Shown one piece after another: positions 1-56,823 of a DNA stretch of 64,000 nucleotides. The notes below the pieces were generated by a model. That model was not told where the DNA came from, did not search any database, and saw only the letters and a program-made list of their open reading frames with translations. The stretch's first letter is position 1, and each line of letters begins with the position of its first letter. Source of the stretch: Longimicrobiales bacterium (lineage in GTDB: Bacteria; Gemmatimonadota; Gemmatimonadetes; Longimicrobiales; Gaopeijiaceae). The DNA is taken from NCBI GenBank assembly GCA_028822645.1, contig JAPKDG010000006.1:1-64000 (forward strand). The letters run 5' to 3'. The position numbers were made by a program, and so were the translations under genes.

Positions 1-117
1 GTTAGGGGGATGGTAAAGAGGATCTATACTGACTGGGCACAGCAAAACGGCGTCTCGGAAATGAATCCAGAAATCATGGACAGGGCTCGTATTGAGCTCG
101 GCCTAGAGGGCATGTAG
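1..117 (+). CDS. C-terminal end of a PCP_red-domain protein (partial)
   Basis: An open frame runs from base 1 to the TAG at 115-117 and gives the last 38 residues of a protein that starts outside the window. The tail has the pattern VRGMVKRIYTDWA, then NGVSEMNPEIMDRAR. This fits the second half of the PCP_red domain (protochlorophyllide reductase 57-kDa subunit C-terminal family): helix with VR..V, then G..E.....M..AR. The same domain recurs in the UspA-fusion protein and the radical SAM protein a few kb downstream, so this gene probably belongs to the same functional block. Its N-terminal part, and so its function, is not visible. The ABC ATPase gene starts 3 bases after the stop, suggesting one transcript. 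Confidence 0.6.
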   Translation, partial: VRGMVKRIYTDWAQQNGVSEMNPEIMDRARIELGLEGM

Positions 118-120
118 CAT

Positions 121-1062
121 TTGTTTGAGATAAAGTCTCTTTCTTATCAGTACCCTTCCGGGAGAACGGGATTGCAGGACATCTCTCTCGAGGGTGGTCC
201 TGGAGAGCGTATTGTTCTGATGGGCCCCAATGGGTCTGGGAAAAGTACGTTGCTTCGGTCCTTGGCTACAGAGTTGTTATATCCTAAGGGCCCCCTTGTA
301 ATATTCGGCCAGCCAATATTTAGAAATTTACAGGAAGTGCGACGAAAGATTGGGTTTGCGGGGGACCATCCGATTCATTTGCCAAGCCTAACTGGCATGG
401 AGAACGCCCAACTTTTCACCGATCTGTATGGCTTGGAACGAAAGGATGCGGGGCCGGTATTAGAGAATCTATTCGCAATATTTGGGTTGTCTAAAGTGAA
501 AGACGTTCCTGTTGGTTCCTACTCTCATGGAATGAAGAAAAAACTTCAACTTGTGGAGAGCTTGGCGCATAACCCTAAACTTATCATCTTAGACGAACCT
601 ACTTTGGGCCTTGATCCTTCTGCCCTAGAAGCATTTGTCGATTCTATGAATCACAATCAGAACCAAGACAGTTGTATAGTTTTAGCCACGAATCATCCCG
701 AATTAGCAACAAAAGTAGCGACCTCTGTCGTTTTTATGGTCGATGGAGCAATTGTCGTTCAAGGGTCACCCGCCGAACTCTTGCAGCGGCTAGATAATGA
801 GGCAAAAGTTGAGATATGGACGTCTGGGACCGCAGGAGAGGATATTGTCTTGGAGGGTATAAGGGCGAGGGTGTTTTCTGACAGAATAATTGCTAACATG
901 CCCACTGATGTGGCAGGACTACCTATTTTGATGGAAAAAATTCTTGATGTAGGCCTTGTTATTTCTAAGGTAGAAATAACAAGGCCTGATTTGGCCGATG
1001 TTTTTGGTTTGCTCACGGGGACTTCTCTGGAAAACGATCACCTACCCAGGGCAGGCTCTTGA
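121..1062 (+). CDS. ABC transporter ATP-binding protein (CcmA/ABC-2 type)
   Basis: 313-residue nucleotide-binding subunit of an ABC-2 type exporter. Walker A is at residues 35-43 (GPNGSGKST), the signature loop is the variant YSHGMKKK near 133-140, Walker B LIILDEP lies near 153-159, and the switch histidine is in ATNHP near 190. The remaining ~100 residues form the accessory C-terminal region common in this family. The start is a TTG three bases after the previous stop, with a weak AGAGGG upstream; no in-frame ATG gives a full Walker domain. It overlaps the permease gene by 4 bases (TTGA), so the two should form one transporter. Substrate is unknown. Resemblance to the CcmAB haem exporter is only general, though the cytochrome-rich surroundings make a haem or assembly role conceivable. 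Confidence 0.88.
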   Translation: MFEIKSLSYQYPSGRTGLQDISLEGGPGERIVLMGPNGSGKSTLLRSLATELLYPKGPLVIFGQPIFRNLQEVRRKIGFAGDHPIHLPSLTGMENAQLFTDLYGLERKDAGPVLENLFAIFGLSKVKDVPVGSYSHGMKKKLQLVESLAHNPKLIILDEPTLGLDPSALEAFVDSMNHNQNQDSCIVLATNHPELATKVATSVVFMVDGAIVVQGSPAELLQRLDNEAKVEIWTSGTAGEDIVLEGIRARVFSDRIIANMPTDVAGLPILMEKILDVGLVISKVEITRPDLADVFGLLTGTSLENDHLPRAGS

Positions 1063-1778
1063 GGTTTGTTATATTGAAAGCGGAATGGCGTGTCGGCCTT
1101 AGAAACAGGCGCCTGTTTTTTTTGAATACTGTAATTCCCTTGGCTTTTGTTGCTCCGATAATCCTGAGTAACGCACCACCGGTCCATGTGACAGCTATAC
1201 TTGTAGTATTGTTTGCTTTGTTTTCTACTTTCGGGTCCAGTATTCCTCTCATTCGTGACCAAGAGTCGGGACTACTGCAGAGATATGTAATGACCGGCCT
1301 GAACCCAGGGCGATTGGTACTGGAGCGCACAGTTGGATTTGTAGCGATTGATTTCTTACAACTGATCCCCGCCATGCTTCTGATAATATTTACGTACAGT
1401 AGTACCCTTGGCTCTACCCTCCTGTTTGTAGTCGCGGTTCTACTCAGTCTGTTGGCTGGCAACTTAGTCGGCGTGCTGGCGGCTACTATTGCCCGCTCCA
1501 TTGCAGAGGGGGCTTTGTTTTCGAGTGGAATTGCTCTCTACCTGGTCCACCTGGCGGGCGTTTTCCGTGTAGCTTCTGGCGGAAGCCTTTGGGCCACCCT
1601 GGAGCTATGGATACCTTTTCGTCCGCTATATATTGCTGTCAGAGGTATTGTTACTGGCATAAGTCCAACAGACACTATGGGTTTAATGGCCCTTCCCATA
1701 GTGGCTACTGTGGGTTTGGTTCTGGTAACGTATTTGCGGGGGCAGATGTTGTCGATATCGAAGAAAATGAATAGCTGA
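1059..1778 (+). CDS. ABC-2 type transporter permease
   Basis: 239-residue integral membrane protein with about six hydrophobic segments and no soluble domain, the usual size for an ABC-2/CcmB-like permease. The start is a TTG at 1059 overlapping the TGA of the ATPase gene (TTGA), so translation is coupled. The motif RDQESGLLQRYVMTGLNPGR between TM2 and TM3 is typical of ABC-2 permeases, where this cytoplasmic loop contacts the ATPase. A long hairpin 36 bases after the stop probably ends the transcript. Substrate not predictable. Confidence 0.82.
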   Translation: MRFVILKAEWRVGLRNRRLFFLNTVIPLAFVAPIILSNAPPVHVTAILVVLFALFSTFGSSIPLIRDQESGLLQRYVMTGLNPGRLVLERTVGFVAIDFLQLIPAMLLIIFTYSSTLGSTLLFVVAVLLSLLAGNLVGVLAATIARSIAEGALFSSGIALYLVHLAGVFRVASGGSLWATLELWIPFRPLYIAVRGIVTGISPTDTMGLMALPIVATVGLVLVTYLRGQMLSISKKMNS

Positions 1779-1813
1779 CAATTGGAAGGTTTGTAGGAGC
1801 AAGCTGACCTTTT

Positions 1814-1865
1814 CGGGCTACTTCTACTTATGGTTGCACATACAACTATAGGTAGAAGTAGCCCG
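1814..1865 (+). terminator. Long near-perfect hairpin after the ABC transporter genes
   Basis: Bases 1814-1827 (CGGGCTACTTCTAC) are the exact reverse complement of 1852-1865. A T-G wobble follows (1828/1851), then a second arm of 8 pairs (1829-1836 with 1843-1850, one wobble) and a 6-base loop. That is 23 pairs in 52 bases. A T-rich stretch (CTTTTTGT, 1873-1880) follows, itself in the loop of a smaller hairpin (CTTGTG 1867-1872 / CACAAG 1881-1886). Position right after the permease stop suggests a transcription terminator. The stem is longer than a typical intrinsic terminator, so RNA processing or mRNA stabilisation is also possible. Confidence 0.65.
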
Positions 1866-2031
1866 GCTTGTGCTTTTTGTCACAAGAAGCTATTTTTGAT
1901 CCTGGAAATTTGGGGTAACTACTGGTGAAAATAGGCATTTCCCCAAGCTAATCGGAGGCCGCACAGCTCTGCCCGTTTGAATCTCTACGCCAGGTGCTGT
2001 GGTATGGTGGATGGCATAGGTTAAACATAAA

Positions 2032-2065
2032 CATCCTTAATTCGATGTGGAATTGAATTAGGATG
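2032..2065 (+). promoter_or_regulatory. Inverted repeat just upstream of the UspA/PCP_red gene
   Basis: CATCCTTAATTC (2032-2043) and GAATTAGGATG (2055-2065) are complementary apart from one bulged T, with an 11-base spacer. The repeat ends 16 bases before the ATG at 2082, just before the GAGGCAAAG ribosome-binding region. It could be a repressor or activator site or a leader RNA hairpin for the long respiratory operon that follows. No promoter hexamers could be assigned with confidence in 1887-2031, which otherwise holds no gene. Confidence 0.4.
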
Positions 2066-2081
2066 ATTCGAGGCAAAGAGT

Positions 2082-4175
2082 ATGTATAATGAGGTTTTTG
2101 TTCCAATTGACAACTCAGATCACTCCCACTGGGCCGTAGACAGAGCTATTGAGATCTGCAAGAACTCTGGCGGTAGTATCGTTGGCAATCATGTGTACGC
2201 TGCTCGGTTGCACGATGTTCGTTTTCGACAGCTGGAAACGGGACTTCCTGCACAATTCCAAACTGCTCAAGAAATTAAGCGGCAACGTAAGATTCATGAC
2301 AAGCTGATCGAAAAAGGGTTGCAGTTGATTTCTGATTCCTTTTTAGACCAAACTGCCAAGATATGCTCAAAGGCAGGCGTTCCCCTTACTAGGCAATTGT
2401 TAGAGGGAATTAATTACGAAGAGATCATACGGGAAGCTAACAAGGGGGCCGGTCGACTGCCCAGTCTCATTGGGTTTGATCCAAATATAGCTGATAAATA
2501 TGATGGTGGCGAGAACGTACGGAGTGACGTTAAGCTCGGAGATGATGGCCGGATCGTGGCTGAAGATGAGGACCCAGACGAAAAACTGTCTGGGTCGAGC
2601 GGGCGTGAATACGACTTGCTGGTTATAGGTGCTCACGGGATCGGCATTCAACCCCTTTCTCAGCTGGGAGGAATGGTTTCCAGGGTCATTCGGCATGTAG
2701 AGAAAGACATCCTGATAACGAAGGACAAGAAACCCCTGAGGGAGGGCTCTTGGATGGTCTGCGTAGATGGGTCCTCTTATTCCTACAAGGCGATGCGCCA
2801 GGCCTTGGAGATGGCCAGGGATTTCAATGCCAAACTGTTTGTCTGCTCGGCCTTCGACGTGGAATACCATCACTCGGTTTTTGGAAACATTAAAGATATT
2901 CTTTCTGTACAAGCTTCAAAGGTCTTTAAGTTCGAAGAACAAGAGGAGTTACATAATAATATCATCGACAAAGGACTACTTAAGTTGGCTCAGGCCAATC
3001 TGAAAAGGGCGGAGGTTATGGCCCAGGAATTTCCAGACGTGGAAGTAGAGACGCAAATACTTGTAGGGAAGCCATTCCAGTGTATCCTTCAGTGGATAGA
3101 AGAGATTGATCCTAGCCTTTTGATCCTAGCTAGGCATGGCAACCACCGAATTGAAGGGACCGACATGGGCTCTCAAGTGGAAAACCTGTGTCGACTAGCC
3201 CCTGGAAACATGTTGGTGACGGGCACCTTAGATGTGGCGCCAGATGACATTCCCTGGATTGAAGAAGACGGGGAATCTGGACTGGAATGGGCCCCTGATG
3301 CGGAGGTACGCATTTTGAGAGTTCCGCCTTTTGCTTTGGGAATAGCCAGAAAAGCTGTAGAAGAGTTCACCCTAGACAATTACGGGCCTGGAGCGAACGG
3401 GACATATAAAATAGAGGTGAATGGTGCGGGTTCCCGCTCCCTTGAAGAGGTTGAAACCGAGCATGACGGTGAATCTGTCCCTCCCCTAGGGAAAGATGGG
3501 ATGCCGATGGTTACAGGTGACCGCTTGGACGAAGCCATTAAGAAGCTACTGCCTACCCATATGCAATTGATAATGGGCATCGGTACGGCGGAAGAGTTGG
3601 CACTAGCGGAGGTGAAGGCCCAAGAAGCAATGAAGCGGACACTGGTCAAAGGCTTTGATCTCGATCTCGATCCAGAGGTAGCCACGATAGAAACCACCTG
3701 TCCCTACACTGGTCATGTTACCACAAGAGAAAGGATTTCAACGGATCCTGTTCAGTGGACTGAGGAGGCTTTCGAGAGACTTGACGCGGTTCCACTAATA
3801 GCCCGGCCCCTGGCCAGGAATACGGTTGAGAGGTTCGCACGCGAGCATGAATTCTGGCGAGTGACAACTATGGTAATGGACGAGAATAAACAAGCCATGA
3901 TCGAGGCGGACGAGTTCGATATGGATACAATGTTGGTCATGTTTAAGGAGTTACAGACAAAGCAGCTTAAGGCTGCAGCGGAAGGAATAGATGGGATGAC
4001 TCCTGAGATGAGGAAATTTATAGAGGAAGCAAAGGCTAATGGGGTGACGCGGTGTCCCATTAGGGACATTGAAGAGGCGGCTGAAAACTGTCCGGTTGAT
4101 CTCAAGATGGTGTCACCTGAGGACGCCAAGTCAGCTATAGAGAAGTTTATGGATACGGAGAACAATAAAGCGTGA
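2082..4175 (+). CDS. Double UspA-domain protein fused to two PCP_red-like domains
   Basis: 697-residue soluble protein. Residues 1-215 form a first universal-stress-protein fold: FVPIDNSDHSHWAVDRA at the N-terminus and LLVIGAHGIG near 185, with an acidic insertion. Residues 216-390 form a second: WMVCVDGSSYSYKAMRQALE, LLILARHGNHR and a final NMLVTG. The second half carries two PCP_red-like repeats, near 400-435 (LEWAPDAEVRILRVPPFALG) and 557-600 (VQWTEEAFERLDAVPLIARP). A CPYTG motif lies near 545 and a CPIRDIEEAAENCP segment near the end. The radical SAM gene overlaps by 4 bases (GTGA) and also ends in a PCP_red domain, so the two probably act together. UspA domains bind nucleotides or act as sensors; what PCP_red does outside chlorophyll synthesis is not established. 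Function unknown. Confidence 0.85.
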   Translation: MYNEVFVPIDNSDHSHWAVDRAIEICKNSGGSIVGNHVYAARLHDVRFRQLETGLPAQFQTAQEIKRQRKIHDKLIEKGLQLISDSFLDQTAKICSKAGVPLTRQLLEGINYEEIIREANKGAGRLPSLIGFDPNIADKYDGGENVRSDVKLGDDGRIVAEDEDPDEKLSGSSGREYDLLVIGAHGIGIQPLSQLGGMVSRVIRHVEKDILITKDKKPLREGSWMVCVDGSSYSYKAMRQALEMARDFNAKLFVCSAFDVEYHHSVFGNIKDILSVQASKVFKFEEQEELHNNIIDKGLLKLAQANLKRAEVMAQEFPDVEVETQILVGKPFQCILQWIEEIDPSLLILARHGNHRIEGTDMGSQVENLCRLAPGNMLVTGTLDVAPDDIPWIEEDGESGLEWAPDAEVRILRVPPFALGIARKAVEEFTLDNYGPGANGTYKIEVNGAGSRSLEEVETEHDGESVPPLGKDGMPMVTGDRLDEAIKKLLPTHMQLIMGIGTAEELALAEVKAQEAMKRTLVKGFDLDLDPEVATIETTCPYTGHVTTRERISTDPVQWTEEAFERLDAVPLIARPLARNTVERFAREHEFWRVTTMVMDENKQAMIEADEFDMDTMLVMFKELQTKQLKAAAEGIDGMTPEMRKFIEEAKANGVTRCPIRDIEEAAENCPVDLKMVSPEDAKSAIEKFMDTENNKA

Positions 4176-5527
4176 TTCCAAGCTCTGGGACGGCAGTGCT
4201 TTCTGAGGATACGTTGGTGGCTCCTTCTGAGAGGCCCGAAAAGGCCTATGTGCCCCACATAGTGGCATGGAACCTAACTAAGAGATGCAATCTTGCCTGT
4301 GCTCATTGCTATATTTCGGCGGGATCCTGGCACGCCCAAGAAAGCGAACTTCCTACAGACGAATGCCTGCGGATACTCAATGAAATTTTGGAGTTGAATC
4401 CAAGTCCTATGTTGATCCTGACAGGTGGCGAGCCCTTGCTGCGCGATGATCTTGAAGAGATCGCAGAAGCAGCTTCATCCAGGGGTGCGACTGTTGTGAT
4501 CGGCACTAACGGAACAGGCCTTACAGAGACCCGAATCGACTCCTTGATAGGCTCTGGGGTTAAGGGGGTGGCGGTCAGTATTGATTCTCTCAGGCCTGAT
4601 TATCATGACCGTTTCAGGCATGGCGGCGGGGCTCTCAGTGAGACTCAAGCAGCGGTGACTAGATGTGCGCAGAAGAAGCTTGATTTTGTGATACAGACGA
4701 CTGTGACAAGTGGAAATCGGCAGGAATTAAGTGATATTGCCAGGTGGGCTGCTAATGCCGGAGCAATTTCATTTAATGTGTATTTTGTGGTTCCTACTGG
4801 CAGGGCTGAACGCATGAAGGGGATGAGCGCAACGGAAAACGAAGAAGTCTTAAAAGATCTGGTTTCCCTAGAGGAGCTTTACAGGGGGACAATGATGGTC
4901 CGTTCGAAGTGCCAGCCTCAAATTATGAGGCATGTGATTGAAGGAGGGTCGGATTCCCCTCTTCTCAACTATGAGACGCGGTGCCCCTGCGGCGTACACT
5001 ACGTTAGAATTACTCCAGAGGGGAAAGTGACTCCCTGTCCTTACATGCCCCTGATTGCAGGAGATCTTCTTACTCAAAGTTTTAAGGAGATCTGGGAAAC
5101 ATCGCCAGTATTTAGTGACTTAAGAGAAGGTGAGCTTTCGGGTCGATGTGGTAGGTGCGAGTACAGAGAGGTGTGCGGTGGTTGTAGGGCTAGAGCCTAT
5201 GCTGATAGTGGTGACCATTTGGGGCCAGATGATTCTTGTGCCTATGATCCAGTCGGAGACAAACCATTGGTAGCGGTGAAGCAGGGGATGTCCTACGGAC
5301 AGGCAGTTGGGAAAACCAGCCTGGAGTGGACTCCTGAGGCCTATGAGAAGGTACAAAAGATACCTAGTTTTGTTAGGGGCGTGGTGGTTGAAAGGGTGGA
5401 AAAATATGCGCATGCTAGGGGGTATGAAGTGGTAGATATGGAAGTGATGACAAAGGTTCGCGAGGACATGCCAGTAGATTTCTCTAAAAAACTCCCTTTC
5501 TTTTTAGGTGGAGGAGGTAGGGCATAA
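4172..5527 (+). CDS. Radical SAM/SPASM protein with C-terminal PCP_red domain
   Basis: 451-residue radical SAM enzyme. The [4Fe-4S]-SAM motif CNLACAHC is near residues 36-43, the GGEP SAM-binding motif near 85, and a SPASM-type cysteine region (CGRCEYREVCGGCRA, then a Cys near 353) holds auxiliary clusters. Similar enzymes mature haem (haem d1 NirJ, AhbD) or peptides (PqqE, AnSME). Residues about 385-435 form a PCP_red domain (LEWTPEAYEKVQKIPSFVRG). Start is GTG at 4172, overlapping the UspA gene stop. The next gene, a bd-like cytochrome, starts at the stop codon. No small precursor-peptide gene is visible nearby, so a role in modifying haem or a respiratory protein is an inference from context. 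Confidence 0.88.
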   Translation: MIPSSGTAVLSEDTLVAPSERPEKAYVPHIVAWNLTKRCNLACAHCYISAGSWHAQESELPTDECLRILNEILELNPSPMLILTGGEPLLRDDLEEIAEAASSRGATVVIGTNGTGLTETRIDSLIGSGVKGVAVSIDSLRPDYHDRFRHGGGALSETQAAVTRCAQKKLDFVIQTTVTSGNRQELSDIARWAANAGAISFNVYFVVPTGRAERMKGMSATENEEVLKDLVSLEELYRGTMMVRSKCQPQIMRHVIEGGSDSPLLNYETRCPCGVHYVRITPEGKVTPCPYMPLIAGDLLTQSFKEIWETSPVFSDLREGELSGRCGRCEYREVCGGCRARAYADSGDHLGPDDSCAYDPVGDKPLVAVKQGMSYGQAVGKTSLEWTPEAYEKVQKIPSFVRGVVVERVEKYAHARGYEVVDMEVMTKVREDMPVDFSKKLPFFLGGGGRA

Positions 5528-7353
5528 TGGCCACCTTGGCAGCTGCCACAGGGAAGAGAAAAATTAAACTAAATCAGAACTGCGGACGGTCCTTGTTCTG
5601 GCCAGCTTTGGCTGTTTTTGGGATCGCCAGTCAGTTCGCCAGTCCTGATCTATTGTTGGCTCAAAGCTTAGAAGGCGTGAGGCAGTACGGAGAGTTTCCT
5701 TTGGTTGGGAGTCGGGTTGCTATTTGGGTTGCAGCCCAGGTTCATCTTTTGTTCGCTGCTTTTGTCCTTGGTGTGCCGATGTTTGCTGTGGTAGCTGAAG
5801 CTGTAGGCATTTTCGGAGGAGACAGCAAGTATGATAAGCTGGCAAAGGAATTTACCAGGCTGCTATTGGTAGCATACTCCGCCACAGCAATCTGGGGAGC
5901 AATTTTATCCTTCCTGTTGGTGACTCTCTATCCTGGGCTGTGGCTGTACCTTACTGAAATATTCCAAGTGTCAATGTGGATTTATGTATGTCTGTTTTTC
6001 TTTGAATCTTTCACTTTATATCTGTACTACTACGGGTGGGACCTCTGGAATACAGGTAGGGCCAAATGGGTACATTGGACCTTGGGGATTCTCCTGAATA
6101 TCTGGGGAACTGCAGTCATGTTCATAGCAAACTCATGGCTGACATATATGATGAGCCCCCCTGCAGATGTCACCCCTGATACGGCTCCAGGCATGGTTCA
6201 ATTTTGGAGCGCTTTTGCCAATGCGACTTGGATGCCCATTAATATCCACAGGATTATTGCCAACGTTGTATTCGGGGGCGCGATTGTGGGCGCTTATGCA
6301 GCTTATCGATTCCTGGTCGCGAGGACAGATGAAGAAAGGGCTCATTATGATTGGATGGGGTATATAGGGAACCTCATAGCTATGGGAGCGTTAATTATAC
6401 TGCCTTTCGCCGGCTATTATTTGGGCAGGGAGATCTACGAGTTTAATCAGCAAATGGGCATCACCATGATGGGCGGCTTTATGAGTTGGCTTTGGATAAT
6501 CCAAGCTTTTTTGATTGGCGTGCTATTTTTGGCTGGGAACTACTATCTCTGGGTTGGCATGGGGCGTATACCAGGTGCGGAGCGCTTTATGCCCTACACT
6601 AAGTATATGCTGGTCGTACTCGTCCTGGGGGTTATGGTGTGGGCCACTCCGAATACGATGATTGCTGATCGAGAAGAAATAGCTGCGATGGGTGGTACTC
6701 ATCATCCATTTCTAGGTGTACTGGGTGTCATGAGTGCAAAGAATACTGCTGTCAATCTGATGATTCTGACAACCTTTTTGTCCTTCTTGCTTTATCGGAG
6801 GGCAAATTCTCGTCCGACTGTGGATTGGGCTAGGACGGGAACCATAGTACAAGGAGCACTTTTCGTGCTGGCCTCTTTGATAGTCGTATTCTATGGCGTC
6901 TACGGCTATTTTGTTCCTGCAATTGTGAGGATTGGTTTTTCCGTTTATCAAGTCCTAGCCGTGTTGGCGACTATAATTGGAGTCATCACTATAGATGTGT
7001 TCATGTTACGAGGAGCAGAATCCAGAGGGGATATAAGGTGGGGTCAGATGCCGCCCAGGTCCCAGTATGCACTTTTTATTTTGGCAGTGACCTTCACGTG
7101 GCTCATGGGTTTGATGGGTTTTGCGCGCAGTGGAATTCGCCAGCATTGGCACGTATGGGAAGTTGTAAGAGATACGAGTGAATATGCGGCAACACCTGCC
7201 CTAGGGTATGCGGCGATTGTCATTTCTTGTTGTGTTTTGATTTTTTTCACCTTGGTCTCTTTTATCTTCTGGCTCGGGGGCTTGGCAGAGAAAGGAACAA
7301 AGGCAAGCGCAGATTCAGTTGCTGCGACTAGCTCCACTCAGGGAGTGAGTTGA
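5527..7353 (+). CDS. Cytochrome bd-like quinol oxidase subunit I-type membrane protein
   Basis: 608-residue polytopic membrane protein with about 13-14 hydrophobic helices after a charged N-terminus. The beginning of the core (GSRVAIWVAAQVHLLFAAFV) resembles subunit I of cytochrome bd, with a histidine in the first core helix. Further candidate haem ligands are in MPINIHRIIANV and GIRQHWHVWE. It is longer than CydA (about 440-520) and no CydB gene follows. Such bd-like proteins are known next to c-type cytochromes in nitrifiers and other phyla. The gene starts at the last base of the radical SAM stop codon and is followed by three cytochrome c genes. Whether it oxidises quinol, reduces oxygen, or passes electrons between quinone and cytochrome c cannot be decided here. 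Confidence 0.72.
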   Translation: MATLAAATGKRKIKLNQNCGRSLFWPALAVFGIASQFASPDLLLAQSLEGVRQYGEFPLVGSRVAIWVAAQVHLLFAAFVLGVPMFAVVAEAVGIFGGDSKYDKLAKEFTRLLLVAYSATAIWGAILSFLLVTLYPGLWLYLTEIFQVSMWIYVCLFFFESFTLYLYYYGWDLWNTGRAKWVHWTLGILLNIWGTAVMFIANSWLTYMMSPPADVTPDTAPGMVQFWSAFANATWMPINIHRIIANVVFGGAIVGAYAAYRFLVARTDEERAHYDWMGYIGNLIAMGALIILPFAGYYLGREIYEFNQQMGITMMGGFMSWLWIIQAFLIGVLFLAGNYYLWVGMGRIPGAERFMPYTKYMLVVLVLGVMVWATPNTMIADREEIAAMGGTHHPFLGVLGVMSAKNTAVNLMILTTFLSFLLYRRANSRPTVDWARTGTIVQGALFVLASLIVVFYGVYGYFVPAIVRIGFSVYQVLAVLATIIGVITIDVFMLRGAESRGDIRWGQMPPRSQYALFILAVTFTWLMGLMGFARSGIRQHWHVWEVVRDTSEYAATPALGYAAIVISCCVLIFFTLVSFIFWLGGLAEKGTKASADSVAATSSTQGVS

Positions 7354-7404
7354 TGGAGCCAAAGGTCTATTTGGACAGGATGTGTAAAACGATAGGGGTC
7401 GTCT

Positions 7405-8205
7405 GTGTTAACTGAAAATTTGAAAATAATCGGAGTTGTAGTGGGGACCATAGGCCTCTTTACTCTCGTAGCAAACTCCATTCCTCAGGTCCAGTCTGAG
7501 GTCCCACAGGATCTTAGTTTCGGGACGGATGTCACGGCTGCTGAACTGACAGCGTCAGGTGGATTGTTGTTTGGTTCGGCTGGGGGTTGTACAGCATGTC
7601 ACGGTCTCGGCACTCGTGCTCCCAATCTCTTGACAAGTAATGGAAGTGAAGGTCCTATCGGTGCGCGTTGTGGAGACAGGGTGACTGGGGAGAGCTGTAA
7701 AGAGTATTTATACCGCGCCATGATTGAACCTAATGTTTTCTTGGTGGAGGGATATAGCCCGATTATGCCAGATATGAGAAGATCTCTTTCGAACGATCAG
7801 ATCTGGGCGTTGGTTGCTTATCTGGAAGCGCAAGGAGGAGAAGTGACTGTCACAGGAGCTGATATTAACCAGGAAGGGGAAGGAGAGGCTCAGACCACTA
7901 TGGCAGCAGCACCGGTACCCGCTGGTCCTACGAGTGACGCAACTGATCCGTTGGAGATTTTGCGAGCAAATGCCTGCTTAGGTTGCCATGTCCTGTCTGG
8001 TGAAGGGGCGCCTATTGGTCCTGGCTTCGATGGAATTGGCGGACGGGTGTCAGCTGATTATATTCGCGAGTCAATTTTAAAGCCATCGGTGGCAGCCGCT
8101 GAAGGGTACGAGGCATTTGCGGGTCTCATGCCCGCCATCTATGCCAATCAATTGACAGCAGGGCAACTGGAAAATGTGGTTATGTTTCTGGCAGAGCTAC
8201 GCTAG
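7405..8205 (+). CDS. Dihaem cytochrome c
   Basis: 266-residue exported or membrane-anchored protein. A hydrophobic N-terminal helix (residues 8-24) is followed by two class I cytochrome c domains, with haem motifs CTACH at 62-66 and CLGCH near 191-195. Candidate distal ligands are Met in PIMPDM and AGLMPAI. An Ala/Pro/Thr-rich linker joins the domains. Start is GTG at 7405. It lies 51 bases after the bd-like gene and 13 bases before the next cytochrome, so it is a likely periplasmic electron carrier of this cluster. Confidence 0.85.
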   Translation: MLTENLKIIGVVVGTIGLFTLVANSIPQVQSEVPQDLSFGTDVTAAELTASGGLLFGSAGGCTACHGLGTRAPNLLTSNGSEGPIGARCGDRVTGESCKEYLYRAMIEPNVFLVEGYSPIMPDMRRSLSNDQIWALVAYLEAQGGEVTVTGADINQEGEGEAQTTMAAAPVPAGPTSDATDPLEILRANACLGCHVLSGEGAPIGPGFDGIGGRVSADYIRESILKPSVAAAEGYEAFAGLMPAIYANQLTAGQLENVVMFLAELR

Positions 8206-8218
8206 AGAGGATAAATAG

Positions 8219-9007
8219 ATGAGCAAACATTTACGGCACCCCTTAGGTCGAGCTGTACTGGTTCTACTGGGCGCCTATGTGTTGATAGAATTTGGGATCG
8301 CTTACCTGCCCCCACTATTTGGCATTCCCAGTGGGCCGGTGCCTGATACGGTACTCTTCCAATATTTGGGCACAGTCGTGGTAGGTATTTTAATATGGGT
8401 CAGTGACAACGAAACTCGGTGGAGCGAATTCAAAGCGCCTTTGCACAAGGTGATGGTAGAACCAGAAAAGAAAAGAGCCAGGCTTGCCCTAGCGGTGATC
8501 ATTCCAGCCCTGGTGGGCCTGATGACCTTCAACCAGGTCAAGCCTTCTATGGCTGCCCCAGCGACTTTACGGTCAATTCACCCTGCCCCTCCAGGACAGA
8601 TTGATTTCAAAGGAGAGACAATGGAACTCGCTGGCCTGGAAAACCCACTTCGGGCCACTGGGTCCATGGAAGAGCATTACGAATCGGGAAGAGAAATATA
8701 CGTTAAAAATTGTATGGCCTGTCATGGTGATGGGTTGGCTGGACGGGGACACTATGCCTTGGGTTTTAATCCTGGTCCAGCGAGTTTTCAAGATGTTGGT
8801 ACCATTGCTCAGCTGACTGAAAGTTATGTTTTTTGGAGAGTTGCCAAGGGAGGACCCGGCCTTCCAAACGAGGGTGCGCCATGGAACTCAGCGATGCCTT
8901 CTTGGGAAGACTTTTTGACTGAAGAGGAAATATGGTCTGTTATTATTTTTATGTATGAACAGGCGGGCCATGAACCTCGTACCTGGGAGGAAGAAGGGGA
9001 ACATTGA
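8219..9007 (+). CDS. Membrane-anchored monohaem cytochrome c
   Basis: 262-residue protein with three hydrophobic segments in the first ~110 residues (8-30, 42-60, 82-100), then a periplasmic cytochrome c domain with CMACH near 165-169 and a distal Met candidate in SAMPSWEDF. The N-terminal membrane module plus a single haem suggests it docks on a membrane complex, possibly the bd-like protein. A ribosome-binding site (AGAGGAT) precedes the ATG. The stop codon overlaps the start of the next gene (TGATG). Confidence 0.83.
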   Translation: MSKHLRHPLGRAVLVLLGAYVLIEFGIAYLPPLFGIPSGPVPDTVLFQYLGTVVVGILIWVSDNETRWSEFKAPLHKVMVEPEKKRARLALAVIIPALVGLMTFNQVKPSMAAPATLRSIHPAPPGQIDFKGETMELAGLENPLRATGSMEEHYESGREIYVKNCMACHGDGLAGRGHYALGFNPGPASFQDVGTIAQLTESYVFWRVAKGGPGLPNEGAPWNSAMPSWEDFLTEEEIWSVIIFMYEQAGHEPRTWEEEGEH

Positions 9008-10557
9008 TGGATACAATTAGAATCATGCTCTTAGTCCTAACTGTCATGACTATCCCGTTGAGGCTTGATGCTCTACAGGAAGATGATTTAGGGAAAGTTA
9101 CCTATGACCGATGGTGCTCTGAGTGTCACGGGGTAGATGGCAGCGGTAATGGGTCGGCAGCGGGATTCATGTTACCGCGGCCTAGGAATTTCACTCTAGC
9201 GCAATACCAGATCCGTACTACTGCTAGTGGGGACCTTCCCACTGATCAGAACATGTTGGATGCGATCAATAATGGTGCCCCAGGTACGGCAATGCCAGCG
9301 TGGGACGATCTTTTGTCGGAGCCTGAAAAACAAGCTCTTGTGCAATACCTTAAGACATTTTCTAGGTTTTTCCCCGACGACGAGGTCCCCCAGTCGCTGG
9401 ATTTTGGGGGTTCCACCCGTACATCTGAAGAAGTGGTAGCTGAAGGTAGGCGTCAATATGAAGCGATAGAGTGTTGGAAGTGTCATGGTGATCAAGGCCG
9501 CGGTGATGGGGAGTCATCGCCGACGCTGGTTGATGATACTGGTTTTCCTGCAGCAGCAGCGGACCTGACTGAGAATTGGTTTTTCAATGGGGGAGATGAC
9601 GTCGAAGATATTTACAGGGCAATTCGTACTGGCTTGGATGGAACTCCAATGCCGAATTTTTCTGATGTGCTGGATGCTGGCGTCATAACCGAGGAAGAGC
9701 TTTGGGCTGTGGCGCACTATGTCAGAAGCCTTTCTCCTGAAGAGGTCCCTGGGATTTCCGAAGTTGTGCAGGCTAGATTGATCGAAGATCTAGACGTGCC
9801 CCGCTCTGTAGCTGATGAGATCTGGAACGAAACTGAAGGCGTGTATATTCCTTTAGTCGGTCAAATCATTGTCCAACCACGTTGGTTCAATCCCCGCGTA
9901 GACGGAGTCTGGGTTAAGGCTTTTCACAACGGGGAAGACATTAGTGTCATGGTGAGGTGGAGTGATCCGAACAATAGTCCTGACCAAGCATGGTCAGACT
10001 GGAAATCGCAAGTGGTGACAACAATGGAGCCTAAAGAGGGTGGTGATACGGGAATAGGTGCGTCTCCGGATCAATTAGTTGTTCAATTTCCTATGCAAAT
10101 GCCAGAGGGTATGGAACGTCCATATTTTCTGAAAGGGGATAGCCGTCGACCTGTCTATTTGTGGGAATGGAAAAGTGATAGACAAACCGCCCTGGAAGGG
10201 GAGGCCCGTGGTGTAGGGACCGAAAGTTTCCAAGCCGAGGGCCAAGACCTTAGTGTGGAAGGAGTCCACAAAGATGGACAGTGGCAGGTTGTATTTACAC
10301 GACCCCTACTGACTGAAGATGAAAATGATTTAGATTTCATTACAGGTGAAGCAATCCCGATGAGCTTTTTTGCTTGGGATGGCGATAATGGCGAATCAGG
10401 CAATCAAGGAGCTTTAAGTTCTTGGTATTTTTTAATGTTGGAAGAAGCAACACCTACAGCTGTGTATGTGGCACCGCCGTTAGCTATGCTGTTGGCCGGT
10501 GCTTTAGGTCTGTTGATGGTCAGGAACGCTCAAAAACGTGAGAAGGAAAATATTTAG
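9007..10557 (+). CDS. Dihaem cytochrome c fused to an ethylbenzene dehydrogenase-like haem-binding domain
   Basis: 516 residues: signal peptide (1-23), a cytochrome c domain with CSECH at 37-41 and distal Met in GTAMPAWDD, a second with CWKCH near 156-160 and Met in GTPMPNF. A beta-rich domain follows from about 280 to 470, resembling the haem b-binding gamma subunit (EB_dh family) of ethylbenzene and DMSO dehydrogenases. A C-terminal transmembrane anchor ends the protein (about 483-503, then KREKEN). ATG at 9007 overlaps the preceding stop. Three possible haems in one anchored polypeptide suggest a relay between a membrane quinol-oxidising unit and soluble cytochromes or the cox oxidase. No molybdopterin partner subunit is encoded nearby. 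Confidence 0.78.
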   Translation: MDTIRIMLLVLTVMTIPLRLDALQEDDLGKVTYDRWCSECHGVDGSGNGSAAGFMLPRPRNFTLAQYQIRTTASGDLPTDQNMLDAINNGAPGTAMPAWDDLLSEPEKQALVQYLKTFSRFFPDDEVPQSLDFGGSTRTSEEVVAEGRRQYEAIECWKCHGDQGRGDGESSPTLVDDTGFPAAAADLTENWFFNGGDDVEDIYRAIRTGLDGTPMPNFSDVLDAGVITEEELWAVAHYVRSLSPEEVPGISEVVQARLIEDLDVPRSVADEIWNETEGVYIPLVGQIIVQPRWFNPRVDGVWVKAFHNGEDISVMVRWSDPNNSPDQAWSDWKSQVVTTMEPKEGGDTGIGASPDQLVVQFPMQMPEGMERPYFLKGDSRRPVYLWEWKSDRQTALEGEARGVGTESFQAEGQDLSVEGVHKDGQWQVVFTRPLLTEDENDLDFITGEAIPMSFFAWDGDNGESGNQGALSSWYFLMLEEATPTAVYVAPPLAMLLAGALGLLMVRNAQKREKENI

Positions 10558-10601: not shown

Positions 10602-11471
10602 ATGTTAGTTCTAAAGAAAATTGAAAAGTTGGCAGCTTTTACACTTGTTGGTAGTCTGTTAATGGTTGGTTGTGGAGGAGCAGACAGCTCTGATAGTGCG
10701 GGATCCTCTTCCGCCGCCTCAGAAGCTACAGCTATGGAGAATCCTGTGGATCCTTCTACAGCTGGTAATATTGTTGGTTCAGTAGCCTTCGAAGGTAGCG
10801 CTCCTGCGATGGATGCTATTGATATGAGTGGAGAATCAGTGTGTGCGAACAAGCACTCGGGCACTCCTATGGTTCAAACCGTGGTTGTGAACGACAACGG
10901 TACGCTTAGCAATGTGTTCGTCTATGTAAAAGAGGGTAGTGCAATTGACGGCATGCAATTTCCAACCCCATCAGCAGCACTGCTAGATCAGGATGGATGT
11001 GTATATAGTCCCCATGTGATGGGAGTGATGGTTGATCAGGAAATCACAATTCGTAACAGTGACGGGCTACTGCACAACATTAACGCAACACCGACTGAGC
11101 AGCGTGGCTTTAACAGCAGCCAGCCGGTCACGATGGAGACATCACAGGATTTTGGTACGCCAGAAGTGATGATTCCACTTAGGTGTGACGTCCACGGGTG
11201 GATGACTGCTTATATAGGAGTACTAACCCACCCTTACCACAGCGTATCGGACGGTAGTGGTGATTTTAGCCTTTCTACTCTCCCCGAGGGAGACTATGTA
11301 GTAGAGGCATGGCACGAGCAGTATGGAACACAGAGTCAAACGGTCACGGTTACTGCAGGTGGGACTGCAGATGTTACCTTCACTTTTAGTGCTGACATGG
11401 CCAATGCGGTAGTTCCAATGGGAACACCAGTAGATCTTCATGATCATTCCTTAGTTACGGACCAGCAATAG
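10602..11471 (+). CDS. Lipoprotein with a CDVHGWM motif and carboxypeptidase regulatory-like domain
   Basis: 289-residue lipoprotein: signal peptide with lipobox LMVGC, acylated Cys24, then a Ser/Ala-rich linker. The body is beta-rich. A segment RCDVHGWMTAYIGV (Cys, His and Met spaced as in a type 1 copper loop) is followed by a carboxypeptidase regulatory-like beta sandwich (GDFSLSTLPEGDYVVEAWHEQYG). Such proteins are often annotated as plastocyanin- or cupredoxin-like; copper binding is not proven. A strong GGAGG precedes the ATG. It sits between the cytochromes c and coxB, so it may carry electrons or copper to the oxidase. Confidence 0.75.
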   Translation: MLVLKKIEKLAAFTLVGSLLMVGCGGADSSDSAGSSSAASEATAMENPVDPSTAGNIVGSVAFEGSAPAMDAIDMSGESVCANKHSGTPMVQTVVVNDNGTLSNVFVYVKEGSAIDGMQFPTPSAALLDQDGCVYSPHVMGVMVDQEITIRNSDGLLHNINATPTEQRGFNSSQPVTMETSQDFGTPEVMIPLRCDVHGWMTAYIGVLTHPYHSVSDGSGDFSLSTLPEGDYVVEAWHEQYGTQSQTVTVTAGGTADVTFTFSADMANAVVPMGTPVDLHDHSLVTDQQ

Positions 11472-11531: not shown

Positions 11532-12215
11532 ATGAATTTGTCGTGGATTATGCCGGAGAGCGTTTCTACGTTTGGACCGGCTTTAGATAACCTCTATTAC
11601 GTAATTCTTGTGATAACAGGAATAGTATTTGTCGTGACCGAGGTCGTGCTTGTGTATTTCATGATCAAGTACAGACATAAAGAAGGCAGAAAAGCTACTT
11701 ATATAGAAGGAAGTAGCAAGGCTGAATGGATATGGACTTCGGCAACAGCAGTCATAGTTATGGCCCTTGCCATTTATTCCAAAGGTATCTGGGACGAAAT
11801 TCGTCATCCAGATATGTTTCCCGAAAACGCTTACGAACTAAACGTTACGGCGAAACAATATGAATGGAACGCCGCCTATGCTGGGCCAGATGGGCAATTG
11901 GGGACTTCGGACGATATCATGTCTAGAAACCAAGTCCATGTTCCAGTAGATCAGCCTGTCATTGTGAATCTTCAGTCGGAAGATGTTATCCATTCTTTTT
12001 TCTTGCCGCAATTGAGGGTTAAGCATGACGTTGTCCCAGGACGGGTTTGGCCAATTTGGTTCGAAGCTACACAAACGGGCGAATTTCCTCTCGCGTGTGC
12101 AGAACTTTGTGGTCTGGGGCATTACCGGATGGGAGGCACATTAATTGTCCATTCAAAAGAAGATTTTGACAGCTGGCTTTCCGAGATGCAGATCGAAGCG
12201 GAGGACGACGAATGA
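11532..12215 (+). CDS. coxB: Cytochrome c oxidase subunit II
   Basis: 227 residues: two transmembrane helices (about 22-45 and 70-88) and a periplasmic cupredoxin domain. The CuA motif CAELCGLGHYRM lies near 189-200, with the upstream histidine in EDVIHSFFLPQL. It accepts electrons from cytochrome c and passes them to subunit I. An insertion GPDGQLGTSDD sits in the cupredoxin domain between the aromatic region (QYEWNAAY) and the remaining strands. There is no fused cytochrome c domain, so a separate donor is needed. The stop overlaps the coxA start (ATGA). Confidence 0.96.
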   Translation: MNLSWIMPESVSTFGPALDNLYYVILVITGIVFVVTEVVLVYFMIKYRHKEGRKATYIEGSSKAEWIWTSATAVIVMALAIYSKGIWDEIRHPDMFPENAYELNVTAKQYEWNAAYAGPDGQLGTSDDIMSRNQVHVPVDQPVIVNLQSEDVIHSFFLPQLRVKHDVVPGRVWPIWFEATQTGEFPLACAELCGLGHYRMGGTLIVHSKEDFDSWLSEMQIEAEDDE

Positions 12216-13990
12216 GCAGTGCGATACCTGTGGGTGACAGCCACTCAGAAGACCACCACGACTTAGGTTTTATTAGGACCTATATCTTTTCTACTGATCA
12301 TAAAATGATCGCTAAGCAGTTTCTTGTTACTTCACTCCTATTTCTTGCCTTGGGTGGAATGCTTGCTGCTATGATTAGGTGGCAACTTGGATTTCCCGGG
12401 CAGCCCCTGCCCTTCAACCTCGGAGCTATCTTACCAGACACTATGGCCCCAGGGGGCATAATACTTCCTGAGTTCTATAACTCACTAGTAACTATGCACG
12501 CTACCTTCATGGTGTTTTTTGCATTGATGCCTCTTATGGCAGGTGTATTTGGAAACTTGTTGATTCCATTGCAAATCGGGGCTGATGATATGGCCTTTCC
12601 TCGAATCAACATGTTGTCCTTTTGGATCACACCAGTGGCGGGTGCAATTATGTTGGCCAGTTTTTTCGTCGAAGGTGGTGCGGCGGGGGCTGGCTGGACG
12701 TCTTATGCACCCTTAAGTACGTCTGGTGAATGGACTGGGGTATATTTGGGTCAAATTCTTTGGCTGGTTAGCCTTATAGTCTTGGGCTTCTCCTCTATTA
12801 CGGGAGCACTTAATTATGTGACTACTGTTATAGCAATGCGTGCTCCAGGGATGACTTGGTTTCGGATACCACTAGCCACTTGGTCTTTGTTTGTTACTGC
12901 GTGGTTGCTACTGCTGGCCATTCCAATATTGACGGGTGGATTAATTCTTCTGCTTCTTGACCAAACAATTGGGACGGCTTTCTTTCGGCCAGAAGGGAGC
13001 GGAGAACCGCTAATGTGGCAACATATTTTTTGGTTCTTCGGCCATCCTGAAGTGTATATCCTTATCCTCCCAGCCATGGGATTTGTCTCCGAAGTCATCG
13101 CGAATAGATCTAGAAAGCCTGTATTCGGATACCATTCTATGGTAGTCGCTATTGTCGCTATTGCGTTTTTGGGTTGGGTTGTCTGGGGACACCATATGTT
13201 CCAAAGTGGAATGAATCCATTCCTAGGAATGAGCTTCATGGCGACCACAGTTGTGATTGCAGTACCATCAGCGATTAAAACGTTTAACTGGATAGGCACT
13301 TTGTGGAAGGGGGATATACATTTTGACACCCCTCTCTTACATGCGGTTTCATTCGTTGCTCTTTTTGTGATAGGTGGATTGTCCGGCATCTTTCTCGCGT
13401 CAGCTCCAGTAGATATTTATCTCCACGATACTTATTTCATTGTTGCACACCTGCACTATGTATTAGTAGGGGGTAGTTTATTCGGAATTTTTGCAGGTAT
13501 CACATTTTGGTACCCAAAAATGTTCGGAAGGATGATGAATGAAACTCTAGGAAAACTACACTGGGGCGTGTCGTTCATCGCCTATAATCTAGCATTTTTT
13601 CCGATGCACAACTTGGGGGTCCAAGGGATGATGCGTCGGATTTATGACCCCAATCAATACGAATTTCTGCAGAGTCTGCAATCCACCAACACATTTATTT
13701 CTAAAAGCGTTTTTGTCTTTGTATCAGTCCAGGTACTTTTTGCTATCAATTTCTTCTGGAGTATGAGAAAGGGTAAAAAAGCAGGCGACAATCCTTGGGA
13801 TTCAAATGGCCTTGAATGGGCCTGTCCCTCCCCTCCTCCGCATGGCAATTTTGCAGAAATACCTATAGTACATAGAGGGCCTTATGAATATAGTTATCCA
13901 GGGAGAGAACAAGATTTCTGGCCGCAAAACGAAGCGCCTGTTGAGAGCTTTGGTGCAAGTACAAAACCCGAACACAAGCCCGGAGAGTAA
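12212..13990 (+). CDS. coxA: Cytochrome c oxidase subunit I
   Basis: 592-residue haem-copper oxidase subunit I. It has about 12 transmembrane helices, the low-spin haem ligand in TMHATFMVFF, the CuB and cross-linked Tyr motif FGHPEVYILILPAMG (with the D-channel glutamate of A1-type oxidases), CuB histidines in VWGHHMF, and the haem ligands in HDTYFIVAHLHYVL. It reduces oxygen to water and pumps protons. A hydrophilic C-terminal tail of about 60 residues (SPPPHGNFAEIPIVHRGPYEY) is common in oxidases partnered with alternative complex III. ATG overlaps the coxB stop. No haem A synthase, Sco or CtaG gene is in the window. Confidence 0.97.
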   Translation: MSSAIPVGDSHSEDHHDLGFIRTYIFSTDHKMIAKQFLVTSLLFLALGGMLAAMIRWQLGFPGQPLPFNLGAILPDTMAPGGIILPEFYNSLVTMHATFMVFFALMPLMAGVFGNLLIPLQIGADDMAFPRINMLSFWITPVAGAIMLASFFVEGGAAGAGWTSYAPLSTSGEWTGVYLGQILWLVSLIVLGFSSITGALNYVTTVIAMRAPGMTWFRIPLATWSLFVTAWLLLLAIPILTGGLILLLLDQTIGTAFFRPEGSGEPLMWQHIFWFFGHPEVYILILPAMGFVSEVIANRSRKPVFGYHSMVVAIVAIAFLGWVVWGHHMFQSGMNPFLGMSFMATTVVIAVPSAIKTFNWIGTLWKGDIHFDTPLLHAVSFVALFVIGGLSGIFLASAPVDIYLHDTYFIVAHLHYVLVGGSLFGIFAGITFWYPKMFGRMMNETLGKLHWGVSFIAYNLAFFPMHNLGVQGMMRRIYDPNQYEFLQSLQSTNTFISKSVFVFVSVQVLFAINFFWSMRKGKKAGDNPWDSNGLEWACPSPPPHGNFAEIPIVHRGPYEYSYPGREQDFWPQNEAPVESFGASTKPEHKPGE

Positions 13991-13992
13991 CT

Positions 13993-14619
13993 ATGAGTGA
14001 CGCTGTATTGGCTACTATAGACCGCACTCCGGAGCCGGGTATGGGGGTGTTTAATAAAAAACTTGGCATGTGGGTGTTTTTGTTGAGTGAGGTGATGTTT
14101 TTCACTTCCCTCATTGGCTCATATATCATTTTGCGTTATGCCCATCCAGATCATTTTGCTGCACCAGGAGAGTTACTCAATGTAAATTTGACGGCGGCAA
14201 ATACGTTTCTTTTGATTTGTTCTTCTGTTAGCATGGTGAAGGCTTTTGCTGCTATCCAACAGGGAGACTTAAAAGGATTACAGAGGTGGTTGTTGGTGAC
14301 CATACTGATGGGTACCGCCTTCGTTAGCGTGCAAGCTTATGAGTATATAATGCTTAGTCACGAAGGTTTTCTTCCCGGCCTGGCAGATTATACCGCACAT
14401 GCTGGAGGTCCATTATACGGTGCGACTTTTTATGTCATGACAGGCTTCCATGGTGCTCACGTTAGCCTGGGTGTTTTAGCTCTGATCTTTGTTTATATCC
14501 GGGCGCTGAGAGGGGAATATACCGTTGCGGATCACGAAGGAGTGGAAGTAATAGGGCTGTATTGGCATTTTGTCGATCTGGTTTGGATCATTCTCTTCAC
14601 CATCGTATACCTCATATAG
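13993..14619 (+). CDS. coxC: Cytochrome c oxidase subunit III
   Basis: 208 residues with five hydrophobic helices, matching the shorter five-helix bacterial subunit III. Characteristic motifs are GMWVFLLSEVMFFTSLIGSY near the start, FYVMTGFHGAHVSLGV and the terminal YWHFVDLVWIILFTIVYL. It stabilises subunit I and proton uptake. It starts two bases after the coxA stop. Confidence 0.95.
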   Translation: MSDAVLATIDRTPEPGMGVFNKKLGMWVFLLSEVMFFTSLIGSYIILRYAHPDHFAAPGELLNVNLTAANTFLLICSSVSMVKAFAAIQQGDLKGLQRWLLVTILMGTAFVSVQAYEYIMLSHEGFLPGLADYTAHAGGPLYGATFYVMTGFHGAHVSLGVLALIFVYIRALRGEYTVADHEGVEVIGLYWHFVDLVWIILFTIVYLI

Positions 14620-14637: not shown

Positions 14638-14958
14638 ATGAAAAACTCTGAAAATGGCACCTCTGACAACCGGATGAATTTCCTGGGTTGGAAGGTAGAT
14701 ATTTATATCGGTATTTGGGTGATTCTCCTTCTACTCACTCTGGGCGAGGTGATTCTTGCTTTCTTGCCTTTTCCTAAAATGGCTCTTGCTCTGGGCTTGA
14801 TTGCTATGGCTGTGTATAAGGCTGCATTGGTTGGTTGGTATTATATGCACCTGCGCTACGAACCGAGGAATCTTTGGATCCTAGCTATTTGCCCGCTTCC
14901 CTTAGCGTTTATTTTGGTTCTTGCAGTGATGACGGAATTTGGATGGCTAGTTGGATAG
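14638..14958 (+). CDS. Cytochrome c oxidase subunit IV (prokaryotic caa3/COX4 type)
   Basis: 106 residues with three transmembrane helices (about 23-43, 48-66, 75-98). The pattern ALGLIAMAVYKAALVGWYYMHLRYE is diagnostic of the small prokaryotic subunit IV family (KA..V..YYMHL). It lies 18 bases after coxC and completes the oxidase core operon. Confidence 0.9.
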   Translation: MKNSENGTSDNRMNFLGWKVDIYIGIWVILLLLTLGEVILAFLPFPKMALALGLIAMAVYKAALVGWYYMHLRYEPRNLWILAICPLPLAFILVLAVMTEFGWLVG

Positions 14959-50591: not shown

Positions 50592-50646
50592 TTTCGCGTC
50601 CTAAGACTGAGAAATCTAGCTTTTACCCATGTTGGGGAGCGGGTAC

Positions 50647-51207
50647 ATGACAAAAAGATGGATAGGTAGGCTCACTATCGGATTTGTTACTATCTTGGGT
50701 TGCCTAGCTTTCGTGTTTTCACAGGAGAATGGAAAGGATGATAGTGTGTCCTCCAGCGCGGAATCCTCGACAGTCTTAGACTTCACTCAGCCCATTGCTT
50801 TCCCCCATACCATTCACGCTGGAGTCGACCAGATAGACTGCCAGTATTGCCATTTTTCTGCTGAGCGTTCGGTAGACGCTGGAATTCCCCCCGTCAGTAC
50901 CTGCATGGGATGTCATATGGTAATTGGTGGTTCAGATGAGGTCCAGCAGGCAGAAATTCAAAAAGTGAGAGACTACTGGGCCGCTAAAGAACCTATTCCT
51001 TGGGTGAGAATTTACAAAGTAGCTGACCATGTTCATTTTCCGCATATGAGACATGTCGCTGCGAATGTAGATTGTACGACATGTCACGGAGAAGTGAAGG
51101 AACTTGAAGTCATAGAAACCGTCAATCAGCCGCTCTCAATGGGTTGGTGTGTCAGCTGTCACGTGGAACAGAACGTCCGTCGCGACTGCACTGTTTGTCA
51201 TTATTGA
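50647..51207 (+). CDS. actA: Alternative complex III subunit A, pentahaem cytochrome c
   Basis: 186 residues from the ATG at 50647 (GGGGAGCGGG upstream; an earlier ATG at 50629 is less likely). N-terminal hydrophobic anchor/signal (IGRLTIGFVTILGCLAFVF) and five CxxCH motifs: CQYCH, CMGCH, CTTCH, CVSCH, CTVCH. This matches ActA, which takes electrons from the Fe-S subunit and passes them to cytochrome c. First gene of the act operon. Confidence 0.94.
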   Translation: MTKRWIGRLTIGFVTILGCLAFVFSQENGKDDSVSSSAESSTVLDFTQPIAFPHTIHAGVDQIDCQYCHFSAERSVDAGIPPVSTCMGCHMVIGGSDEVQQAEIQKVRDYWAAKEPIPWVRIYKVADHVHFPHMRHVAANVDCTTCHGEVKELEVIETVNQPLSMGWCVSCHVEQNVRRDCTVCHY

Positions 51208-51223
51208 TCATGGAATGTATTCA

Positions 51224-56819: not shown

Positions 56820-56823
56820 AAAT

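Follow-up and report, generated by a model that had tools for sequence, protein, structure and literature searches.

A conserved gene block of PCP_red proteins and a cytochrome bd-like complex in Gemmatimonadota and Methylomirabilota

The window, i.e. bases 1–64000 of contig C99 (66,109 bp) from a marine Gemmatimonadota metagenome-assembled genome (MAG; 2.04 Mb), opens with a block of genes in which the PCP_red domain (PF08369) is carried by a zinc-ribbon protein, a universal stress protein (the UspA fusion) and a radical S-adenosylmethionine (SAM) enzyme, ahead of genes for a cytochrome bd-like protein, three c-type cytochromes, a lipoprotein and cytochrome c oxidase. This block is a real, conserved system that most likely matures a tetrapyrrole cofactor of the bd-like complex, with protein modification and oxidase assembly as alternatives. 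Specifically, we propose, at a probability of roughly 0.45, that the PCP_red genes together with an Mrp-type ATPase and a ferredoxin constitute a maturation module by which the adjacent bd-like complex is provided with a modified tetrapyrrole, either through its synthesis or through its insertion. The closest named relatives of the source genome are the Gemmatimonadetes MAGs SP311 and UWMA-0339, whose UspA fusions are 94–95% identical. No paper joining these genes was found in the open literature; subscription papers lay outside the scope, and a description elsewhere is possible.

The original prediction, made from the DNA letters alone, counted four PCP_red segments in three genes, and this count was upheld by PF08369 profile matches (curated cut-off 32.5 bits) and by the joining of two contigs, with the radical SAM enzyme and the UspA fusion both scoring above the cut-off. 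The domain of the radical SAM enzyme (5327–5461; all window features lie on the plus strand) scored 49.7–53.6 bits, and the second segment of the UspA fusion (3756–3890) 41.3 bits. The weaker, first segment of the latter protein (3288–3374) by itself falls below the cut-off at 21.8 bits, with W403, R410, R413, P415 and R423 nearly invariant within it, while the whole protein scored 51.5 bits. The fourth segment, at positions 1–117, is the 3' end of the zinc-ribbon-PCP_red gene and reached 17.8 bits because this gene is cut by the contig end. Its missing part was located on the minus strand of contig C44 (C44:5–100), where PCP_red positions 1–32 were matched with 34.3 bits; the ends of C99 and C44 have approximately 55 bases in common, and the first 400 bases of the gene correspond to C44:1–400 (minus strand). 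The rejoined gene encodes a protein of about 153 aa with a CxxC...CxxC motif and PCP_red, and it lies uncut at the same position in the close relatives L027 and L028. Directly upstream of it on C44 are genes for the Mrp-type ATPase, which has a CxxC motif, and for a four-cysteine ferredoxin, both of which belong to the block though located on another contig. PCP_red is otherwise known from the tetrapyrrole enzyme BchB; against the full-length BchB family of NCBIfam, the C-terminal region alone matched, with 37.5 bits against 509. A role in chlorophyll synthesis was rejected, as a PF08369 search of the genome placed every PCP_red domain within these three genes.

Synteny was assessed in 80 loci retrieved with the UspA fusion as query, whereas the Methylomirabilota loci were located via PF08369 and not via neighbouring genes. 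Wherever the contig was long enough, and with few exceptions, the order shared by the approximately 80 loci was ferredoxin, Mrp and zinc-ribbon-PCP_red, an optional ABC (ATP-binding cassette) pair, UspA-PCP_red, radical SAM-PCP_red, bd-like, three cytochromes, lipoprotein and coxBAC. Methylomirabilota carry the same gene set in rearranged orders. Co-occurrence was counted for PCP_red against bd-like genes only: of 59 Gemmatimonadota relatives, 24 had both the UspA-PCP_red and the bd-like gene and 33 had neither (p=3e-14), and of 95 Methylomirabilota genomes, 57 had both PCP_red and bd-like genes and 29 had neither (p=1e-15). These p-values overstate independence because the genomes are related. 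The rearranged orders in Methylomirabilota are the stronger evidence. Most of the exceptions examined are contig breaks. Of the two in Gemmatimonadota, one is 60% complete and has a divergent bd-like copy, and in the other the contig breaks off within the UspA gene. Among the Methylomirabilota, 64 of the 95 genomes encoded PCP_red, and several of the seven that had PCP_red and no bd-like gene are explained by contigs that break before its expected position (L168, L171 and L173) or end (L154 and L161). Another of these seven, G069, has PCP_red proteins without the module; this genome (L167) has a three-PCP_red-domain protein and a distant radical SAM gene and no bd-like gene, so that PCP_red may serve further systems as well. 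By synteny and co-occurrence, the linkage of the block is more than chance. Both outcomes that would have refuted the original prediction were checked and not seen: PF08369 is detected, and the genes are found together in further lineages, among them a second phylum where they are arranged differently.

A number of loci stand apart from these samples. Five, titled Rokubacteriota or Gammaproteobacteria (L105, L049–L051 and L053), carry Gemmatimonadota-like clusters, which reflect transfer, misbinning or incorrect titles. In L105, a Rokubacteriota contig by title, the genes are ordered as in Gemmatimonadota and the radical SAM enzyme branches with those of that phylum; this locus is therefore a case of transfer or misbinning and was not counted as independent support. 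Within the Methylomirabilota block, two small proteins without Pfam matches are encoded at L162:251–649 and L162:2609–3031 (132 and 140 aa, respectively), and a protein sharing its start with the first of these follows the radical SAM gene in L159 (2032–2460).

The radical SAM/SPASM gene (4172–5527; PF04055 85.8 bits, PF13186 37.4 bits, PF08369 49.7 bits) overlaps the UspA gene by four bases (4172–4175), as had been noted originally, and the bd-like gene by one base (5527). Its product contains CX3CX2C and eight SPASM cysteines, C247-X23-C271-X17-C289-X36-C326-X2-C329-X5-C335-X2-C338-X17-C356, spaced exactly as in the full AhbD motif CX20-33CX17CX36-37CX2CX5CX2CX17-35C (PMC10452713), and all eleven AhbD-type cysteines are conserved in both phyla. 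The best NCBIfam families were NirJ2 (274.6 bits), AhbD (TIGR04545, 270 bits against a cut-off of 500) and TIGR04053 (252 bits), each match being below its family cut-off, whereas a true Methylomirabilota AhbD (L215) reached 520 bits on TIGR04545. NirJ (TIGR04051) gave 165 bits against a cut-off of 515, and the enzyme branches separately from NirJ. In a tree with NirJ/AhbC-like, AhbD and TIGR04053 references drawn from Methylomirabilota, the enzyme forms a branch of its own within the NirJ/AhbC/AhbD/TIGR04053 group; the PCP_red enzymes form one group per phylum, and these are adjacent, their joint branch being weak (82/40) and two other rows long. The original interpretation is partly supported: its suggestion that the block may mature a modified haem is the best-supported one, because the enzyme lies in the tetrapyrrole-modifying NirJ/AhbC/AhbD group and has the AhbD cysteine pattern. 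PCP_red itself may offer a binding surface for a tetrapyrrole or an Fe-S cofactor, as was also suggested originally, or may act as a docking module alone. Haem b synthesis is served by ChdC, which is encoded in the genome, and the radical SAM enzyme is therefore not needed for it; an AhbD-like role in haem b synthesis was rejected on the presence of ChdC and on the missed AhbD family cut-off.

Alternatively, the radical SAM enzyme might introduce a cross-link or a comparable residue modification into the bd-like protein or one of its partner cytochromes, with PCP_red serving only to dock the maturation proteins to each other. SPASM radical SAM enzymes are well known to act often on peptides or proteins (PMC10452713), the bd-like protein has long invariant stretches, and the recurrence of PCP_red on three unrelated scaffolds, and three times within one protein, is what a docking domain would be expected to show; yet NirJ, AhbD and TIGR04053 are the closest curated families (mycofactocin and PqqE gave 126 and 107 bits against 275 and 270), and the CX2CX5CX2C spacing is of the AhbD type, and we thus regard residue modification as unlikely. 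Peptide maturation was rejected, no precursor-peptide gene having been seen on reading the sequence of the block, without a formal search. Proteins with three PCP_red domains were observed in Methylomirabilota (L161:3572–4354, L160:16792–17880, L164, L167, L169 and L172), two of them encoded between the genes for UspA and for the EB_dh cytochrome, and they fit a modular docking or binding role.

The UspA fusion (2082–4175; PF00582 99.9 bits, PF08369 51.5 bits) is a tandem universal stress protein (USP): PF00582 matches two stretches of one chain, and in structure comparison residues 1–380 match two-domain tandem USPs. Past residue 380 lies the extension holding the PCP_red segments, which is poorly modelled. 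Mean column identity is 66% across 52 sequences, and the Gemmatimonadota homologues are 65–82% identical to the window protein; a plasmid search with the fusion returned ordinary USPs only. As its fold is that of ATP-binding stress proteins, the UspA and PCP_red proteins might be sensors of redox or energy state through which the respiratory complexes are regulated, making no cofactor, but this is very unlikely given that the block's intact radical SAM enzyme, its Mrp and its ferredoxin point to chemistry and that all cluster cysteines are conserved across the phyla.

Membership of the bd-like protein (5527–7353) in the cytochrome bd superfamily is indicated by PF01654 (73.3 bits against a cut-off of 26.2) and by a Foldseek match to CydA (E 1e-7, probability 1.0), obtained with a model of middling confidence (mean pLDDT, the predicted local distance difference test, 72.5) whose C-terminal half aligns weakly. 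Residues H73, E160, H241 and H542 are invariant, the first three being equivalents of H19, E107 and H186 of Escherichia coli CydA. We take H19, E99, E107, H186 and E445 of the latter to be haem-site residues, and E99 and E445 to be the canonical active-site glutamates. The bd-like protein departs from this quinol-oxidising set, as Y153 replaces E99 and no Glu is present in residues 515–545, corresponding to E445. Its identity between the phyla is 58–63% in most loci compared (45–52% for a divergent copy in L160), above that of the UspA and radical SAM proteins (approximately 30–40%). As the genes of the c-type cytochromes and a cupredoxin-like lipoprotein adjoin the bd-like gene, a cytochrome c-linked role is likely, resembling that proposed for OR-N enzymes in PMC10839748. 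The combination of a bd fold with c-type cytochromes beside cytochrome c oxidase, in a genus that itself lacks a bc1-type cytochrome b, might also suggest that the complex stands in for complex III, oxidising quinol and reducing the cytochrome c that feeds the oxidase next to it. This barely plausible explanation was rejected, since the window holds a full alternative complex III operon and the presence of the module is unrelated to that of cytochrome b (p=0.43). The operon (50629–58116) is ActABCDEF-like and encodes a multihaem cytochrome, a molybdopterin-like/Fe-S protein, two NrfD-like proteins, ActD and an ActE cytochrome. With ChdC and alternative complex III present, the block adds to, and does not replace, the usual haem synthesis and quinol oxidation.

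Downstream of the bd-like gene, the three c-type cytochromes, the metal-site lipoprotein and coxBACD were all found as originally described. The first cytochrome (7405–8205; PF00034 49.2 bits, two CXXCH) is di-haem with an N-terminal membrane anchor, the second (8219–9007; PF13442 41.1 bits) is mono-haem and membrane-anchored, and the third (9004–10557; PF13442 73.5 bits, PF09459 72 bits, TIGR03477 89.2 bits) is a di-haem cytochrome fused to an EB_dh domain, a haem b domain resembling the gamma subunit of type II dimethyl sulfoxide (DMSO) reductases. The lipoprotein (10602–11471; PF13620 38.6 bits) combines a carboxypeptidase-regulatory-like domain with conserved H158, C195, H198 and M201, a motif that suggests a cupredoxin-type site. 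By sequence and synteny, coxB (subunit II, CuA motif; 11532–12215), coxA (subunit I; 12212–13990) and coxC (subunit III; 13993–14619) follow, as does a coxD-like gene (subunit IV; 14638–14958), named from sequence and from homologues that adjoin coxC in Methylomirabilota. This proximity raises the possibility that the module serves not the bd-like complex but the cytochrome c oxidase encoded nearby, helping to assemble its haem A or copper sites, since coxBACD follows in Gemmatimonadota and in most Methylomirabilota clusters, the latter having ctaA-/ctaB-like genes (named from sequence, without a family search) between coxA and coxC. However, L150, L151 and L153 have PCP_red genes beside bd-like with no cox genes nearby, and cox genes are known to be widespread in bacteria that manage without such a module, and oxidase assembly is thus distinctly improbable. 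In one Methylomirabilota genome (L150:14265–19510) the block extends to genes for another EB_dh cytochrome and for a molybdopterin oxidoreductase of 1157 aa, and the complex may therefore have a molybdoenzyme partner there.

In the proposed tetrapyrrole maturation, of which we infer all chemical steps, the radical SAM enzyme would receive its [4Fe-4S] clusters from Mrp and be reduced by the ferredoxin, upon which it would alter a side chain of an iron-tetrapyrrole in the manner of NirJ and AhbD. As an ATP-binding hub, the tandem UspA protein may gather partners through the PCP_red domains, and the finished cofactor would be passed to the bd-like protein (or to the haem protein with the EB_dh domain). 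The bd-like protein would draw electrons from its c-type cytochromes and the cupredoxin and not from quinol. The synteny, the co-occurrence in two phyla, the clusters without cox, the placement and conserved cysteines of the radical SAM enzyme, the PCP_red of BchB, the presence of ChdC, the block in which no precursor-peptide gene was seen and the altered CydA-fold protein all support such a maturation. Several observations weigh against it: most genomes have the cox genes, a possible client, in the same cluster; no PCP_red genes adjoin a second bd-like copy (L048), although that genome has the module; and C540, C658 and C670 of the UspA fusion, invariant across Gemmatimonadota, are not kept in Methylomirabilota, so that an essential shared metal site in the extension is disfavoured. 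Furthermore, we know of no product assigned to the TIGR04053-type enzymes of the same tree and, to our knowledge, no function has been established for PCP_red, not even for that of BchB. A more specific proposition is possible, if doubtful, namely that in both phyla a cytochrome c-linked bd-like reductase has as its cofactor a new modified haem, produced by a pathway of PCP_red-tagged radical SAM enzyme and UspA hub. The second copy in L048 belongs to a bd-like/cytochrome/EB_dh/lipoprotein set (L048:1–9677; bd-like 47% identical) next to the main cluster.

Two further genes and a repeat lie upstream of the UspA gene. An ABC transporter ATPase (121–1062; PF00005 91.7 bits) and an ABC-2 type permease (1059–1778; PF01061 39 bits) form an optional pair that occupies this position in 30 of the 80 related loci. 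Between the pair and the UspA gene, a terminator-like inverted repeat followed by a T-rich stretch was read at 1815–1864.

Should the maturation role hold, PCP_red would be a general cofactor-maturation module and not a marker of chlorophyll synthesis, and respiration in two widespread phyla, both composed mostly of uncultured bacteria, would be supported by a new pathway for a haem or for haem insertion. PF08369 is among the Pfam families used in genome screens for phototrophy (PMC12815261), and its occurrence in a respiratory setting in the 64 Methylomirabilota genomes and in Gemmatimonadota has a bearing on such screens.

Compared with known systems, the block shares with BchB/ChlB of dark-operative protochlorophyllide reductase the C-terminal PCP_red (PF08369; domain structures 2kru and 2l09), but its three PCP_red proteins lack the nitrogenase-like BchB core. 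The radical SAM enzyme resembles NirJ, AhbC, AhbD and TIGR04053, its nearest curated families, in CX3CX2C and, for full AhbD, in the spacing of the eight SPASM cysteines, and differs from them in scoring below every family cut-off, in its own branch, in the extra PCP_red domain and in its bd-like neighbours. Like the tandem USPs Rv2623, TTHA0350 and UspE, the UspA fusion has the two-domain USP fold, to which it adds a C-terminal extension of approximately 300 residues with PCP_red segments. Finally, the bd-like protein shares the CydA fold and the H19/E107/H186 equivalents with the non-quinol bd families OR-C/OR-N (CydAA'), as cited in PMC10839748, PMC12342949 and PMC13189123, and is distinguished from them by the lack of Glu at the E99 and E445 positions and by being encoded with three c-type cytochromes, a cupredoxin-like lipoprotein and PCP_red genes.

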